In this document: in pieces, positions 19,413 through 26,356 of the stretch | Numbering within the stretch: position 1 is the stretch's first letter | Layout: each line of letters opens with the position of its first letter | Assembly (NCBI RefSeq): GCF_004349055.1 | Contig: NZ_SMKX01000037.1 | Location: 1 to 64,000, forward strand | DNA length: 64,000 bases | Source of the DNA: Kribbella antibiotica | GTDB taxonomy: Bacteria; Actinomycetota; Actinomycetes; Propionibacteriales; Kribbellaceae | Reading direction: 5' to 3' | Position numbers and translations under genes: made by a program | The notes under the pieces: model-generated | What the model saw: the letters and a program-made list of their open reading frames with translations, nothing else | The model's database searches: none | Told to the model about the DNA's origin: nothing

Positions 19413-20402
19413 ATGCGTGCAGCAGTGGTGACCGAGTTCGGCGAACCCTCGGTGATCCGGATCCAGGAGTGGCCCGACCCGGTTCCGGCGGAAGGACAGG
19501 TCCTGGTCGAGGTCGAGGTGGCCGACATGATCTTCGTGGATGCAGCGATTCGCCGTGGCCACCATGGCGGCTACTTCGACGTCACACCGCCGTTCGTGCC
19601 CGGCAGTCGCTTCGGTGGCCGCGTCCGGGCGACAGGCCCCGGGGTATCCGACACGTGGATCGGAAAGACCGTTGTCGGGCGCAGCGTGGACTTCGCCGCC
19701 CACGCGGAGCTGGTTGTGGCGGCATCCGACTCACTGACTGAGACCGATCTGAATCTTGAGACCGCGGTCGCTGTGACCGGGGACGGCTTCACGACGCTAC
19801 TGCTCGAACAGCTGGCCCCAGACCTGCAGGGCAAGGACGTACTGATCACTGCGTCGGCAGGCGGCATGGGACTGCTGCTGATCCAGCTAGCGCATCGCGC
19901 CGGCGCACGTGTCATCGCTGCCGCGCGCGGTCAGGCCAAGCTCGACCTCAGCCAGGCACAGGGCGCCGACGTGGTGATCGACTACTCGCAGCCGGGCTGG
20001 GAGAAGTCGGTGCTGGAGGCAACCGGTGGCCGCGGCGCCGACGTGGTCTTCGAAGGTGCCGGTGGCGAGCTGGGCACGACAGCCTTCGGTGTGGTCAAGG
20101 ACGGTGGCTGGTTCTCGGCGCATGGTGCGCCGAGCGGGACCTTTGCCACCTACGACCCGGCTGAGGCCGACCGTCGAGGCATCACGGTGAAGGGGATCGA
20201 AGACCTCCGCGTCGACCTCGTCGCCACGACGGTTACCGATGCGGCGGTGCTGCAACGAGCCGCGGCCGGCGACCTGGTCCCGGTGGTCGACCGCGTGTTC
20301 GACCTGGATCACGTGGCCGAGGCCCACACAGCCCTCGAGCAGCGCGTACTGCTCGGCAAAGCTCTGATCAGGGTTCGACCGGCTGGTCTGCGTGGTCAGT
20401 AA
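19413..20402 (+). CDS. zinc-independent quinone oxidoreductase / MDR-family alcohol dehydrogenase
   Basis: This 329-residue MDR-superfamily oxidoreductase has an N-terminal GroES-like domain and a Rossmann domain with the NADPH motif SAGGMGLLLIQLA. The structural zinc cysteines are absent, which fits quinone oxidoreductases (zeta-crystallin type). AAGGAG precedes the ATG by seven bases. Its 3' end overlaps that of the convergent GGDEF gene by 35 bases. Open frame extending far upstream is antisense to the SNF2 gene and is not coding. Confidence 0.85.
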   Translation: MRAAVVTEFGEPSVIRIQEWPDPVPAEGQVLVEVEVADMIFVDAAIRRGHHGGYFDVTPPFVPGSRFGGRVRATGPGVSDTWIGKTVVGRSVDFAAHAELVVAASDSLTETDLNLETAVAVTGDGFTTLLLEQLAPDLQGKDVLITASAGGMGLLLIQLAHRAGARVIAAARGQAKLDLSQAQGADVVIDYSQPGWEKSVLEATGGRGADVVFEGAGGELGTTAFGVVKDGGWFSAHGAPSGTFATYDPAEADRRGITVKGIEDLRVDLVATTVTDAAVLQRAAAGDLVPVVDRVFDLDHVAEAHTALEQRVLLGKALIRVRPAGLRGQ

Positions 20403-21702
20403 CAGCAGGTGGATTCGGCCGGGCCGCGACAATGCGGTTCCGGCCGTCCTGCTTTGCAGTGAGCAAGGCGTTGTCAGCGGCGAGCACTAGCTGGTCCATG
20501 GTGTTCGCAACGTCCGGATACACCGCCACACCGATGGAGGCCGGCACACCGGTGATCACCGCGGTCCGATCGGCCGCAGTGTCGACCGACACGTTCAGTG
20601 CGCTCAGGCGGTCCCGGATTCGCTCCGCGACCTCGAGTACCTCGGTCTCGGAAGCGCCAGGCAGCAGGACTGCCAGCTCGTCGCCACCGACCCGTGCGAC
20701 CAGATCGCCCTGCCTGACCTCTGCCCGAACGCTCTGCCCGACAGCTTTCAGCGCTTGATCGCCGGCCGGGTGACCATAGGTGTCGTTGATCTCCTTGAAC
20801 CTGTCCAGGTCCAGCATCAACAGACCGACCGTGCTGCGCAGCGTCTCCGCCCGCGCCAACTCCACCGGTACGGCGTTCGCCCAGTACGCCGGTGTGGCCA
20901 GCCCGGTCTTCACGTCCGTCCCAGCAGCACGCTGGAACTGCGGTAGCAGCAGATCGCGATGCAGCGTCAGCACCGTCACCATCAGGATCGGCACCACCCA
21001 CGGGTACGACGCCTGCAGCGCACCGACCGCCACACCAAGCCCCAGCCCCGCGACCACCACCAGTTGATCGGAGAGGTCGCCGAGGGCGCTACGAGCCGTG
21101 GCGTCCGGGGACGACAGCAGAATCGCGCCGATCACCAGGGCGAAGTTCACCAGCCACCAGGTAGTCGCAGTGCCCAGCACAACAAGCAGTGAGAACGGGC
21201 CGGTCGGCACCCGCGGCTCAGCGATCAGCCCGCCACCACGCAGTACGGCGGCAGCCGCGGCGCTGGCCAGGATGAACGTGCTCGCGGAGAACACCTTCCG
21301 GTGCGCGATCGTCCGGCCGTAGACGCGAATCCAGGAGTACCCGTACGAGACGACGATCAGTGCGATCACCAGGCTCAGCGGGAGCAGCAGCAGACCGGCG
21401 AAGACCCAGAGGCTCTTCAGGTTCGTGTAGGGCGAACTGTTAGCCGCCATCTCGCGTCGCCGTTCGATTCCGCGGGCAGACTCCAGATGCAGGACCGAGG
21501 CGGCCGTCAGTACGGCGAAGGCGACCCACTCCGACGGCCTGACGCCGGCTCGGGCGCCGGAGATCGTCGAGGCCAGAGCCAAGGCGGTGATCGCGATCGC
21601 GACAGCATCGACACCGAGCACATAGCTCAGCGCCGGGCGTGGCAACGACCAGAGCTTCCATTGGCGGGGTGGCACCCACTTGCTCCGACCGATCAGAATC
21701 AT
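20368..21702 (-). CDS. membrane-bound diguanylate cyclase (GGDEF family)
   Basis: A 444-residue protein with six or more hydrophobic helices in the first 260 residues and a C-terminal GGDEF domain. The active site reads RVGGDELAVLLPG (GGDEL, a common active variant) after DLDRFKEINDTYGHPAGD. It should make cyclic di-GMP from GTP at the membrane in answer to an unknown signal. No clear RxxD inhibitory site was seen. GAGG precedes the ATG. It is divergent from the GNEW-repeat peptide gene, with 120 bases between the two starts. Confidence 0.88.
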   Translation of the reverse strand: MILIGRSKWVPPRQWKLWSLPRPALSYVLGVDAVAIAITALALASTISGARAGVRPSEWVAFAVLTAASVLHLESARGIERRREMAANSSPYTNLKSLWVFAGLLLLPLSLVIALIVVSYGYSWIRVYGRTIAHRKVFSASTFILASAAAAAVLRGGGLIAEPRVPTGPFSLLVVLGTATTWWLVNFALVIGAILLSSPDATARSALGDLSDQLVVVAGLGLGVAVGALQASYPWVVPILMVTVLTLHRDLLLPQFQRAAGTDVKTGLATPAYWANAVPVELARAETLRSTVGLLMLDLDRFKEINDTYGHPAGDQALKAVGQSVRAEVRQGDLVARVGGDELAVLLPGASETEVLEVAERIRDRLSALNVSVDTAADRTAVITGVPASIGVAVYPDVANTMDQLVLAADNALLTAKQDGRNRIVAARPNPPAVTDHADQPVEP

Positions 21703-21822
21703 GGTGGCCTCACACGGATAGACCTGAGCGGTTATTCCTGAATAGTAACTGCCTGTTCACGCGAGGTCATCCCGGACCGCGCGTTATTCCATCTGGCGGA
21801 TGGCGAAGGAAGGATCCCCACC

Positions 21823-22020
21823 ATGTCCAAGATCAGCACCGGCAACGAGTGGTTCCACGGCTCAAACAAGCGTTCGGCAGGCGCCGGAAACGAGTGGCTG
21901 CACGGCGGGAACGAGTGGTTCCACGGCGGGAACGAGTGGTTCACGCAGAGTGGCAACGAGTGGCTGCACCGGCCCGCCGGGGGCGGCAACGAATGGTTCA
22001 CCAACGGTAACGAGTGGTGA
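21823..22020 (+). CDS. GNEW-repeat peptide, 65 residues
   Basis: The short protein is almost wholly made of seven GNEW repeats. After each, Phe or Leu usually follows, then His-Gly or Thr, and the last repeat ends exactly at the C-terminus. Seven of its 65 residues are Trp. A good AGGA ribosome site lies eight bases before the ATG. The repeats differ at synonymous positions (GGC, GGA, GGG, GGT for Gly; GAG and GAA for Glu), so the peptide rather than the DNA has been conserved. There is no signal peptide or membrane span. I do not recognise the family. It could be a modified peptide precursor, a metal or ligand binder, or an interaction repeat. No maturation enzyme is adjacent. Confidence 0.7.
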   Translation: MSKISTGNEWFHGSNKRSAGAGNEWLHGGNEWFHGGNEWFTQSGNEWLHRPAGGGNEWFTNGNEW

Positions 22021-22106
22021 TCCACCGAACCTCCCGGCAATTTCTTTACGAATACTTTACCAAGAGCCTTCCGGGGGTAATTCCCTGAATCCCCGGCCGG
22101 CTCGTG

Positions 22107-22128
22107 AAATACGGCGTACGCCGTATTT
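22107..22128. terminator. 22-bp perfect palindrome between convergent genes
   Basis: The arm AAATACGGCGT is followed directly by its exact reverse complement. It lies 87 bases after the GNEW gene and 10 bases after the stop of the convergent MFS gene. A- and T-rich ends on both sides fit a bidirectional terminator. The lack of a spacer would equally fit a TetR-type operator, but no promoter is evident here. Confidence 0.5.
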
Positions 22129-22138
22129 GTGCAGGAAA

Positions 22139-23383
22139 TCAGGCAAGGACCGTTGCGGCGGCTTCCGGCCCGGGGCGGCGGGCTCGCGACCAGGCGGTGC
22201 CCGCCGCCGCGGCGGCAATCAGACCGACAGTGCCCATCACCCCCAGGGCGAACGACGGTGTCGAGCCTTGCGCGATGAGACCGGCCAGCAGGATGCCGAG
22301 GCCCTGACTGCTTCTGAGTGCTGTGCTGGCGACTCCGAACGCCTGACCGCGCTGTGAGTCCGGCACGGCCTGAACGAACGCCGCACTGGTCGGCAGGTGG
22401 TACGCAGACGCCATCCCTGACATGCCCCACAGCAGCACTGTCGGCAGCAGGCCAGGGGTGAGGAAGCTCAGTGCCAAGGGGACGCAGGCGAGGGCGGCCA
22501 GTGGCCCAAGCAGCCGCATGCGACGTTCTGGAGGCCAGAGGGTGATCAGCCACATCCCGAGAACTGCACCGGCCGGGCTGGCGGCCAGGAGGAGCCCCGC
22601 TGCGGTTGGTCCCTGACCGATCTCATGGGCATAGGGGACCGCGAGGCCCTCCACGGTGACGTAGAAGCCGGCGATGGTCGCCAGGAGGACCAGCGTCCGC
22701 AGCTTCGGCGTACGGGCGACCAGTGAGAGGCCTGCGGACAGGTCTTGGAAGTAGCCCCGGCGTGGCGCATCAGTGCCACTTGTCGGAGCTGGCCGGCTAC
22801 GCACTCCGACGGCAATGAGTCCGGCGGAGAGCAAGAAGGTTGCAGAGTCGAGCAGGAGGCCGCCGGATGTGCCGACAGCCACCACGATCGCGCCACCGGC
22901 ACCGAAGCCGAGCACCTGACTGAACTGCACAACCATGTCGTTGGCGGCCTTGCCGAGCACGTAATGATCCCCGGGCAGTACGGCGGGCAGGGTCGCTGCA
23001 CGCGCTGCGTTGAACGGCGCCCCGAAGGCCTGCAGTCCGAGCAGAAGCAGGATCACGACCAGTAGTGGTAGCGCCTGAATCGCCATAGCAGCAACGAGAA
23101 TCGCCCTCGCCAGGTCGGTGATGATCAGCACCGCACGGCGCGGATAGCGGTCCGCGAAGCCCGCGAGCAGCGGACCGAAGAGCAGATCAGGGATGTAGGT
23201 CAGCGCATACGTCAGTGCGGTCAGTCCGGCCGACTTCGTCCGGTCGAAAACCAGTACTGACAGCGCCACCCGTGCGAGCTGGTCACCGGCGACGGAGAGC
23301 ACTCCGGCCAGGAACAACGCCCGGAACTCGGCATGCCCGAAGACATCCCGCCAGCGCGCGCGCCCGACCACCTCGCCCTCCAT
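22139..23383 (-). CDS. MFS efflux transporter (MFS_3 / enterobactin-exporter-like)
   Basis: A 414-residue membrane protein with about 12 hydrophobic segments. The loop between helices 2 and 3 carries GFADRYPRRAVLIITD, the MFS signature. Early motifs (FRALFLAGVLSVAGDQLARVALSVLVF) resemble MFS_3 exporters of drugs and siderophores. The gene is alone, convergent with the GNEW peptide gene, with no adjacent regulator, so the substrate cannot be guessed. Confidence 0.85.
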   Translation of the reverse strand: MEGEVVGRARWRDVFGHAEFRALFLAGVLSVAGDQLARVALSVLVFDRTKSAGLTALTYALTYIPDLLFGPLLAGFADRYPRRAVLIITDLARAILVAAMAIQALPLLVVILLLLGLQAFGAPFNAARAATLPAVLPGDHYVLGKAANDMVVQFSQVLGFGAGGAIVVAVGTSGGLLLDSATFLLSAGLIAVGVRSRPAPTSGTDAPRRGYFQDLSAGLSLVARTPKLRTLVLLATIAGFYVTVEGLAVPYAHEIGQGPTAAGLLLAASPAGAVLGMWLITLWPPERRMRLLGPLAALACVPLALSFLTPGLLPTVLLWGMSGMASAYHLPTSAAFVQAVPDSQRGQAFGVASTALRSSQGLGILLAGLIAQGSTPSFALGVMGTVGLIAAAAAGTAWSRARRPGPEAAATVLA

Positions 23384-23686: not shown

Positions 23687-26356
23687 GTGCTTCCTTCTCC
23701 TCACTCCAGGCAAGTAGCGCGTCCGCTCTCCGCCCCTGGCGCCTATGTCTATGACGCCGCCATCCATGACGCAGTGGCTGCGGCGTCCTGCGGGGAGGAC
23801 GCGATGCAGGAAGTTGCTGCCGTGCTGTTGCGGCGCCGCCGGTTGGTCGATGCAACAACGCTGACCCCGCCCGTGCGCCGGTCGGCCTGGCAATGGGTGC
23901 GGCGCCCGCTGACGATCCAGGCGGGCCTGTCCGCGTTGCAGGCCGACCTCATCCAGCGCGGGTTTCTGCTGTCGGTGGGCCTCTACCGGCACTGTGCCGG
24001 GTTGTCGGCTCCCGCACTGGCCGGTCTGGGCAACGCACTGCTCGACCTGCTGGACGCTGAGTCCGGTCACGACACCGAGCACGTCCCACTGTTCCGTGGC
24101 TTCCCGGACACGGTCCCGGCCGATACCGAAGCCTTCTACATCAACCGCGTCTTCGCCCGGCTGCTCCAGGAGCCGCAGCAGCCCTGTGTGCTGTGCGGGG
24201 ACACCAAGTCGGTGCATCCGGTCTCGCCCTGCGCGCATCTGGTCTGCCGCCAGTGTTGGGACGGCGAAGACCTCAGCGCCTGCCCGCTGTGCCTGCAGCA
24301 GATCGATCCGAGCGACCCGTTCCTGCAGCCGGGGTTCGACGGAGTGCCGCAAGAGCAGGTTCGTTCCGATCGGCTTCGCCTGCTGTCGCTGGCCGGTCCG
24401 GACGCGGTGCGCGCCACAGTCGACTCACTGCTGCTCCGCCGGACGCCGCCATCGGCCATGGATCGTTTCGACCTGCAGGTGCTGTTGCCCCTGGCCGAGC
24501 TGTCCTGGCTGCCGAATGACATCCCGGTCCGCGAGATCCGAGCTGTGGTGCTCGCACACTTCCTCGCAGAAGAGCCAGCCGTGATCGACCGGGCAACTAC
24601 GGCGACCGACGTACTGCGGCTGCTCTACGCGCTCATGAACGCCGATCCTGGCCTGCGGACACCACCTGTCCGCCGGACGTCGCTGCCCCGCGCCACACGG
24701 CGGCTGGTGCTGGCGCGACTAGACCGGCTGCCGGCCGAGACGCTGATCGAGGACATGCTGCGACACGAGCGCGCGTGGAAGCGCATGGGCGAGGTGCTGC
24801 ACCCGTTCGAGTTCGCGACGAGGCATCCGCGGGCGGCCCTCGCCTTCGCCGTACTGCGCCGTACCGATCTCGAGGCGGGTACGGCGGCCGGTCGGGCGGT
24901 GCTGGGCGAGGCGGCACAGCATCCGTTCGTGCGGTTGGAGGGCGGCCGGCTGGTCATGCGCACGTTCGCGACGCGCGTCGAGGGCGCGTTCGTGGAGGGT
25001 CGTCCCGGGCTCGCCCTCGATCTGCTGCGGCAGCGGCCGGGAGAGCTGCTCCGGAGGCTGGTGCAACTCGCCCGCGAGCTACCGGCCGATCAGCACGGCG
25101 ATCTGCTCGCAGCAGTCGCCGTCGCTATCTCGGATGTGTCGCCGGTGGTCATCACTGCGGCGCTTGGGCAGGTGCGGACGCCACCCGGTGACCTGCGGCT
25201 GTTCTTCCCCCGTGGCGGCAGCACCCGGGTCTGGACCACGGTCGACCACAGGGAGCCGCTGCCGTCCCAGCTTGCCGCCGCGCTGTCCGGCGTACTGGTT
25301 GGTGAGATGTTGCGGCGGGCCAGTGATCTGCCGCGGTGGCGTCGGGCCTTCCTGGACGAGAACCTTGTCAGGCTGGCTGCTCCGGGCTCGGAGCGCGGTT
25401 CGTCTGGCTCACTGCGCCGGATGACGCGGGGGAGCGCCGTGGCGATCCCGCCGGAGGAGTCGCTGCGGTTGTTCCTGCACTGGGTCGAGCCGGAGGGGCA
25501 GCGGGTCGACCTGGACCTGTCGGTCGCCGTGTTCGGCGAGGAGTGGGACTTCGTTGGGCTCTGTGACTACACCCGTCTGCGCTTCGACCAGGAGGCGCTG
25601 GTGCACTCGGGAGATCTGACGTCCGCTCCGGGGCCTGGCGGCTCAACGGAGTTCGTCGATCTCGACCTGCGTCAGCTCCGCCGCGTCGGCGGGCGGTATG
25701 TGCTGCCGGTGGTGTTCAGCTACAACGACGTCCCGTTCGACCGGCTGGAGCGCGGTTTCGTCGGAGTGATGCGGCAGCCCGTCGGACTGTTCGACCCGGC
25801 CGCGGTCGAGGAGCGGTTCGACCTGTCCGGCGCGGAGAAGATCCTGATGCCGTTCGGCATCGACCTGCACACCAAGGAACTGCGCTGGTACGACATCAAC
25901 CTCAGCGCCGCCGGCTACGCGCACGACATCGCGCGGTACGGCGGTCACCTGGCGCTGATGTCGGCCGCCCTTGAGGACGTGTACGGCTCGGGTGATCGGG
26001 TCAGCCTCTGGGAGATCTGCTGCTGGCACGCCGCTGCCCGCGCGGACGAGATCGCGGTCAGGTGTGACGACGGATCGGTCGTCGGCTATCTGCGTGATCC
26101 CGCCGAGGACGTGACGACGTTCGCCAAGCGACTTATCGCCCGCCTGGAGCCGGACCGGGTGTGGGACGAGGATGCGGCATCGCGAGCAGATTTCGTCGGG
26201 GTGCTCAATGGAGACCTCACGCCACGCCCCGGCACGGAGGTCTTCGCGCTGCATCCACGCCTGCTCGACGCCACCACCCTCGCGCTGGTGGACGCGTCGT
26301 GGCTGCTGAGTTCGCTGGCTCCGGACAGTCGGGCGCACGCTCCGGTCAACCTGTGA
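23687..26356 (+). CDS. RING-finger protein with TerD-like C-terminal domain (MXAN_6230/SCO0854 type)
   Basis: An 889-residue cytoplasmic protein. A C3HC4 RING finger is complete at Cys167, 170, 182, His184, Cys187, 190, 199 and 202. Long helical regions follow, and from about residue 600 to 800 is a TerD-like beta sandwich (VDLDLSVAVFG, LVHSGDLTSAPGPGGSTEF, FVDLDLRQL), the calcium-binding fold of tellurite-resistance proteins. The order matches the family known from Myxococcus and Streptomyces as MXAN_6230/SCO0854 RING-domain proteins. A bacterial RING suggests a ubiquitin-like or protein-scaffold role, and TerD links it to stress or phage response (inference). The GTG start has only a weak ribosome site, so the N-terminus is uncertain. 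Confidence 0.75.
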   Translation: MLPSPHSRQVARPLSAPGAYVYDAAIHDAVAAASCGEDAMQEVAAVLLRRRRLVDATTLTPPVRRSAWQWVRRPLTIQAGLSALQADLIQRGFLLSVGLYRHCAGLSAPALAGLGNALLDLLDAESGHDTEHVPLFRGFPDTVPADTEAFYINRVFARLLQEPQQPCVLCGDTKSVHPVSPCAHLVCRQCWDGEDLSACPLCLQQIDPSDPFLQPGFDGVPQEQVRSDRLRLLSLAGPDAVRATVDSLLLRRTPPSAMDRFDLQVLLPLAELSWLPNDIPVREIRAVVLAHFLAEEPAVIDRATTATDVLRLLYALMNADPGLRTPPVRRTSLPRATRRLVLARLDRLPAETLIEDMLRHERAWKRMGEVLHPFEFATRHPRAALAFAVLRRTDLEAGTAAGRAVLGEAAQHPFVRLEGGRLVMRTFATRVEGAFVEGRPGLALDLLRQRPGELLRRLVQLARELPADQHGDLLAAVAVAISDVSPVVITAALGQVRTPPGDLRLFFPRGGSTRVWTTVDHREPLPSQLAAALSGVLVGEMLRRASDLPRWRRAFLDENLVRLAAPGSERGSSGSLRRMTRGSAVAIPPEESLRLFLHWVEPEGQRVDLDLSVAVFGEEWDFVGLCDYTRLRFDQEALVHSGDLTSAPGPGGSTEFVDLDLRQLRRVGGRYVLPVVFSYNDVPFDRLERGFVGVMRQPVGLFDPAAVEERFDLSGAEKILMPFGIDLHTKELRWYDINLSAAGYAHDIARYGGHLALMSAALEDVYGSGDRVSLWEICCWHAAARADEIAVRCDDGSVVGYLRDPAEDVTTFAKRLIARLEPDRVWDEDAASRADFVGVLNGDLTPRPGTEVFALHPRLLDATTLALVDASWLLSSLAPDSRAHAPVNL

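Follow-up and report, generated by a model that had tools for sequence, protein, structure and literature searches.

What might be the function of a 65-codon open reading frame (ORF) that repeats the tetrapeptide Gly-Asn-Glu-Trp (GNEW) seven times and ends on the last copy? This question is raised by a locus of Kribbella antibiotica situated within a 64,000-nt stretch of DNA, which was analysed as a whole (referred to here as the window; its genome is designated G000). The ORF translates as MSKISTGNEWFHGSNKRSAGAGNEWLHGGNEWFHGGNEWFTQSGNEWLHRPAGGGNEWFTNGNEW, the seventh GNEW directly preceding the TGA stop codon, exactly as a preliminary description had stated. Among 200,000 residue shuffles of this 65-mer, two GNEW units appeared in 21 and more than two in none (seven observed). 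The gene is placed between a divergent gene of a membrane GGDEF protein (a diguanylate cyclase, DGC) and a convergent MFS gene (Table 1). A good ribosome-binding site, the divergent arrangement with the GGDEF gene and third-position changes between the copies (GGC/GGA/GGG/GGT and GAG/GAA) had all been described, and were found again. The reported alternation of Phe and Leu after Trp is not strict: the seven tryptophans are followed by F, L, F, F, L, F and the stop, i.e. by a mixture of both residues.

Table 1. Coordinates of the features of the window locus, and products of the minigenes at paralogous loci
Feature	Position	Strand	Remarks
Membrane diguanylate cyclase (GGDEF) gene	20368..21702	-	divergent partner; Pfam
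First codons of the GGDEF gene	21683..21702	-	codons 1-6 invariant, including synonymous sites, in 35/35 loci
TCACGCGAGGTCA	21757..21769	.	exact match to the BldD box TNAC(N5)GTNA; sequence match
Ribosome-binding site GGAAGGA	21808..21814	+	8 nt before the ATG; read from the sequence
N-E-W repeat peptide gene	21823..22020	+	65 codons, seven GNEW units, the last forming the C-terminus
Conserved element TCTTTAC-N6-YTTAC	22043..22060	+	just 3' of the stop codon
CCGGGG...CCCCGG inverted repeat, candidate terminator	22071..22096	+	read from the sequence; relatives by eye
MFS transporter gene	22139..23383	-	convergent; Pfam/NCBIfam profile
Minigene products		opposite to DGC	MQNNDW 9, MRNNDWH 4, MRNGEWH 3, MRNNDWP 2 (of 25)
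Single-occurrence minigene products		opposite to DGC	MNNDW, MRNNEW, MRNNNDWG, MRANDWF, MRTNDWP, MRNNDWT, MHNEWP (one each of 25)

A profile search of the 65-mer against Pfam and NCBIfam returned no family above its cut-off, which agrees with the initial statement that no described family with this repeat is known. The calcium-binding RTX nonapeptide repeat (PF00353) bears a Gly-Asn-Asp-x-Phe resemblance to the units; with an E-value of 0.56 and a score of 10.7 bits, where the family requires 23, the peptide is not a member of it, and it differs in its commonest period (7 instead of 9) and in the presence of Glu in 15 of 35 species. AlphaFold2 gave no structure (pLDDT 47.8), and the 65-mer is predicted to be disordered. 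Neither a signal peptide nor a processing protease was apparent, as judged without a dedicated tool.

When the loci were read directly, 36 of the 38 Kribbella genomes proved to carry an intact orthologue in the corresponding position (35 listed in the alignment, plus G011, whose last unit is GDDW), in keeping with the suggested synteny with the GGDEF gene. A tblastn search across the genus (E≤1) produced matches, some of them by chance, in 37 of the 38 genomes; the peptides of eight named Kribbella records are 66-91% identical to that of the window. G031 contains no peptide at the locus, though the orthologous DGC is present. Of the two outcomes that the preliminary description had named as refuting, a lack of homologues was not observed, and frameshifts within the repeats are confined to a single genome, G017 (locus L075), in which the peptide gene and the GGDEF gene are both broken and the alignments of eight genes nearby each stay in one frame. 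The paralogous MFS genes of G017 also have split frames or a stop, and assembly indels are therefore possible in this genome.

The orthologous peptides are 28-65 aa long and comprise 2-8 units, preceded by 3-19 residues and separated by glycine-rich spacers of varying length. Two units are found in G029 and G021, three in G016, G023 and G025, six in G024 and G009, and seven or eight in the others, with one additional unit lacking its Trp in G036. Asn is preceded by Gly in almost every species, but consistently by Ser in G009 and by Thr in G024. The acidic residue is uniform within each peptide: 15 of the 35 counted peptides contain only N-E-W (111 motifs) and 20 only N-D-W (116 motifs), without one case of mixing across 227 motifs, despite the fact that Asp and Glu are separated by a single third-position change. 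In the tree built from the adjacent GGDEF protein this division appears as one split (G017 counted as E); it reads as one event because the remaining units of G017, which had carried the D label by default, are N-E-W.

Codon position 3 is the least conserved (0.84-0.85 versus 0.905-0.93), and pN/pS amounts to 0.12-0.53 in 11 of 12 close pairs of our choosing (0.47 for all pairs summed), the exception being G016/G023 (35-aa peptides), with a value of 1.46 based on six differences. The codon-position pattern, the lack of D/E mixing and the pN/pS values therefore indicate selection on the peptide, as had been argued, against DNA slippage, from the third-position changes. Codon bias for Asn and Asp in the peptide also exceeds that of six genes nearby (Fisher P 0.015 and 0.003, respectively; Glu, P 0.31).

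Several trivial explanations were rejected. A chance ORF or slippage is ruled out by the orthologues, the pN/pS values, the D/E purity and the shuffles. Antisense coding was set aside because both the codon signature and a ribosome site are found on the sense strand, although one of the reverse frames lacks stops in 32 of the 35 species. An RNA element is not supported, since there is no Rfam match at E 1 and synonymous sites vary. As for a decoy of a host motif, the G-N-(D/E)-W-(F/L) DNA pattern occurs outside the gene only four times in G000 and once in G030, among five genomes.

Downstream of the gene, TCTTTAC-N6-YTTAC has one exact genomic copy each in G000 and the likewise peptide-bearing G030 and none in the peptide-less G031; the reversed pattern, used as a control, also matched once in G030. 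In several species of the Asp clade this element is part of a GGTAAA-TC-TTTACC palindrome (observed by eye). The inverted repeat that follows, a possible terminator, has a CCGGAG...CTCCGG counterpart in several relatives, as seen by eye in the alignment. A perfect 22-nt palindrome, AAATACGGCGTACGCCGTATTT (22107-22128), lies between the convergent peptide and MFS genes, and was not seen in the aligned relatives. Across the 35 Kribbella loci the synonymous invariance of the GGDEF gene is limited to codons 1-6, unlike the rest of the gene, and a DNA or RNA element possibly overlaps these codons.

The nature of the peptide became clearer from the paralogues of its neighbour. GGDEF genes paralogous to that of the window (25 reported at E≤1e-80, in 21 of 38 genomes) were inspected by reading the upstream regions of all 25, and each has a minigene on the opposite strand at the equivalent place. 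These minigenes consist of 5-8 codons, in which N or G is followed by D/E and then W, and are preceded in 25/25 cases by a GGAGG-type ribosome site 7-9 nt from the ATG. The same pattern was absent from 5000 dinucleotide-shuffled gaps and from the 25 opposite strands (0/5000 and 0/25), and the Arg at codon 2 varies synonymously (CGC, CGG, CGT, CGA). A degenerate DNA pattern of the minigene occurs at 20 sites in 18 of 38 Kribbella genomes, all within regions upstream of paralogous DGCs. Among 353 genomes of the order outside Kribbella it matched one, at the beginning of a longer, unrelated ORF. Since the pattern fixes some of the coding positions, it misses 5 of the 25 minigenes. The genome of the window itself carries a minigene, that of MRANDWF (contig C222, locus L164). 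Two remoter DGC paralogues (31% identity) have none.

Comparison of the two forms shows that the 65-mer is a repeat-expanded member of a minigene family whose core, Asn-(Asp/Glu)-Trp, either forms the C-terminus or directly adjoins it. The preliminary description thus holds as regards protein-level selection, the lack of a known family and GGDEF synteny; it missed the single-unit minigenes of paralogous MFS-DGC cassettes, because their detection needed other genomes. This family of very short Kribbella peptide genes (down to five amino acids) is apparently undescribed. The five-codon MNNDW minigene is among the shortest genes known to us, and genes of this size are expected to be missed by standard annotation.

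Outside Kribbella, the repeat form gave no credible match when the G030 peptide was compared with 255 other genomes of the order (best E 9.7e-4). A sample of 396 genomes of the phylum yielded only the genome of origin, and in a class sample of 394 the four other genomes matched contained unrelated tandem repeats (a reversed control pattern matched in five). None of 34 matching stretches in viral contigs is a relative. The phylum and class searches covered the repeat form and the search for single-unit minigenes covered the order; relatives may exist elsewhere than in the sampled genomes. Searches of the open-access literature turned up nothing on these peptide sequences, the best-ranked matches to the motif letters being due to chance as judged by titles and abstracts, and no paper on Kribbella with diguanylate cyclase.

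The minigenes and the repeat gene share more than the cyclase. Nine of ten searched genomes contain paralogues of the MFS gene (47-55% identity) whose end lies 210-254 nt (counted between match ends) before a GGDEF paralogue on the same strand; G030 lacks this arrangement. When eight paralogous 16-kb loci were compared (four serving as reference; ORFs of at least 110 aa, present in at least three loci), the MFS and DGC genes were the only common ORFs, overlapping frames aside. The neighbours of the peptide gene profiled in the window encode SWIM, SNF2, ADH, GGDEF, MFS, RING, GntR, GDSL and SBP proteins and one protein without a family. The flanking genes (SNF2, SWIM, ADH, RING, p167, GntR, SBP, GDSL) form a stable block of their own, and none of the eight paralogous loci holds any of them. 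The three genes therefore travel together. As a side observation, the 889-aa protein encoded at 23687-26353, with a prokaryotic RING finger (Prok-RING_4), adjoins the locus in all 18 Kribbella loci compared first.

An MFS sequence, whose window version has no solved relative at E 0.01, adjoins 24 of the 25 minigenes and is missing at locus L147. The MFS gene of the window locus is present in 30 of 38 genomes, all with 6-8 units; the eight loci without it comprise five with 2-3 units, the broken G017, the peptide-less G031 and G022 with seven units (Fisher P 6e-7, relatedness ignored). With relatedness considered, there are three MFS losses besides that in G031, two accompanied by peptide decay, on branches equal to 9% of the tree length. 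A link between MFS loss and peptide decay is therefore suggested, not proven. Export through this transporter is not obligatory, because the MFS gene is missing at L147 and at six loci with intact peptides. Nevertheless, a peptide gene, a transporter and a membrane signalling protein occur together at 24/25 paralogous loci and in 30/38 genomes, and from these comparisons we consider it almost certain that both the peptide family and the MFS-DGC cassette are real.

A DGC orthologue or paralogue adjoins every N-(D/E)-W peptide gene found, and all these cyclases belong to a single subfamily of membrane DGCs. The GGDEF domain of the window protein is well supported (PF00990, E 5.7e-39); the closest chains of known structure belong to diguanylate cyclases or GGDEF response regulators, and AlphaFold2 models this domain confidently and the membrane part poorly. 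The active-site motif reads GGDEL in the 17 window-locus DGCs and the G031 orthologue that were aligned, and GGEEF in four aligned paralogues; the DGC activity of the window protein is therefore not assured. Repeat loci encode a DGC with the N-terminal tail MILIGRSxWVPP, and minigene-linked DGCs have SIRH or IIRH tails, mostly Arg-rich (19 of 25 readable). The DGC orthologue of G031, which lacks the peptide, has neither tail. We consider it probable that the function of the peptide is tied to the DGC.

The promoter shared by the two divergent genes contains a further element. BldD of Streptomyces is a c-di-GMP-dependent repressor. Its box has the consensus TNAC(N5)GTNA, and its binding is enhanced by c-di-GMP (according to an extract of PMC4151990). 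A match to this box was found in 35 of 36 window-locus promoters and 18 of 25 paralogous ones, the other 7 being without an exact one; the control frequency was 118 in 6100 mononucleotide-shuffled regions. In most species the element, TCAC-N5-GTCA, which fits the consensus given in the same extract (PMC4151990), is found 65-69 nt ahead of the start codon, the largest distance being 85 nt. Unlike the Streptomyces regulon, the present case is one of sequence match, and BldD may act at the shared promoter.

Encoded, as a rule, between the genes of a transporter and a c-di-GMP-making enzyme, the peptide is therefore a candidate signal for c-di-GMP. We put at roughly 45% the probability that the genes constitute a peptide-exporter-DGC cassette whose N-(D/E)-W product acts through c-di-GMP. 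In this view the ligand of the membrane DGC would be the peptide itself or short pieces derived from it; the ligand would most likely be exported by the MFS protein, serving as an autocrine or paracrine signal that sets c-di-GMP, and c-di-GMP-loaded BldD would bind the box in the shared promoter, closing the loop. The repeats might raise the amount of signal made in each round of translation, or provide avidity. That the peptide is an exported signal acting on the DGC has, in our estimate, somewhat less than an even chance. The complete scheme is more tentative: a secreted peptide, made from a minigene or a multi-unit precursor, would be exported by its cognate MFS protein and sensed by its cognate DGC, with c-di-GMP-BldD feedback, at most three parallel channels per genome differing in the residues that flank the core. 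Two of the roles proposed in the preliminary description, a precursor with repeated cores and a signalling or interaction repeat, survive; nothing favours metal binding, the orthologue alignment containing no Cys and no fixed His.

Peptide quorum sensing in Gram-positive bacteria combines a signal, an exporter and a receptor, with output through a histidine kinase or regulator and an ABC or peptidase exporter. The Kribbella cassette resembles such systems in joining a small peptide gene, a transporter and a membrane signalling protein; it differs in its candidate c-di-GMP output via a DGC, in its MFS transporter and in the direct encoding of a 5-8-aa peptide. The other close parallel is microcin C, whose precursor gene mccA has 7 codons (product MRTGNAN) and whose peptide is exported by the MccC pump (extract of PMC6495379). 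By analogy, the cassette would work most like mccA-MccC or the peptide quorum-sensing cassettes.

The strongest competing explanation, though a rather unlikely one, is an intracellular regulator: unexported N-(D/E)-W units would interact directly with the DGC (or the MFS protein) from the cytoplasmic side, as an inhibitor or activator, the repeats providing avidity. It accords with the lack of an apparent secretion signal, the predicted disorder, the fact that the DGC is the most constant partner (25/25 paralogous genes) and the MFS gene sometimes missing, and the N-terminal tails special to peptide-linked DGCs and missing in the G031 orthologue. However, a length of 5-7 residues is little for a protein regulator in the cytoplasm, where peptidases could attack such peptides, and the joint travel of the MFS and DGC genes with the minigene is left unexplained. 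The secreted signal is favoured over this regulator, and over the natural product considered below, because a transporter is usually present in the cassette.

It is distinctly improbable that the units are the cores of a peptide natural product of the microcin C or multi-core RiPP type, exported by the MFS protein and controlled by c-di-GMP only in its production. The minigenes (5-8 codons), not the repeat form (28-65 aa), agree in size with the 7-codon mccA, and share with the microcin C genes, as described in the extract of PMC6495379, a frequent Met-Arg start, the lack of a leader and a pump gene in the set; the Kribbella loci differ in their diguanylate cyclase gene, the Trp-ending core and the repeat-expanded form. 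Multi-core RiPP and pheromone precursors carry several nearly identical units within a single short ORF, which ends with the last of them, and in Kribbella, too, the last unit terminates the ORF and all units of one peptide have the identical D/E residue. Here, however, the spacers are variable and the unit also occurs alone, in minigenes of 5-8 residues that leave no room for a leader. Moreover, no third gene, and hence no MccB-type adenylating enzyme, is common to the eight paralogous 16-kb loci (ORFs of at least 110 aa), and no RiPP modifying enzyme was detected there or among the profiled window neighbours (an unlinked one is possible); the MFS gene is absent in several species.

Even less likely is a translation-level device, in which a Trp-coding short ORF would stall the ribosome, or sense Trp-tRNA, on a transcript antisense to the 3' end of the MFS gene, the peptide itself being inert. 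The extreme shortness of the ORFs, their strong ribosome sites, the terminal or nearly terminal Trp and a transcript directed towards the MFS gene would suit this, but the next gene, MFS, is convergent, which precludes attenuation in cis, and the purifying selection on up to eight units (11/12 pairs), the purity of the 227 motifs and the synonymous variation at the minigene Arg codon 2 all speak against it. A local relic without function, kept by slippage and shared ancestry, is hardly credible, since the broken G017, the peptide-less G031 and five species reduced to 2-3 units are outweighed by genus-wide conservation, by the pattern of codon changes and by the recurrence of the core in the paralogous minigenes.

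Actinomycete development is controlled by c-di-GMP through BldD; to our knowledge, the signals that activate diguanylate cyclases in these bacteria are largely unknown. If the proposed reading is true, Kribbella would offer an example of protein-coding genes that are conserved although no longer than five to eight codons, and of their link to a repeat precursor. The minimal minigene-pump-DGC cassette, with its natural one-unit and eight-unit versions, would then make DGC activation testable with a few synthetic peptides.
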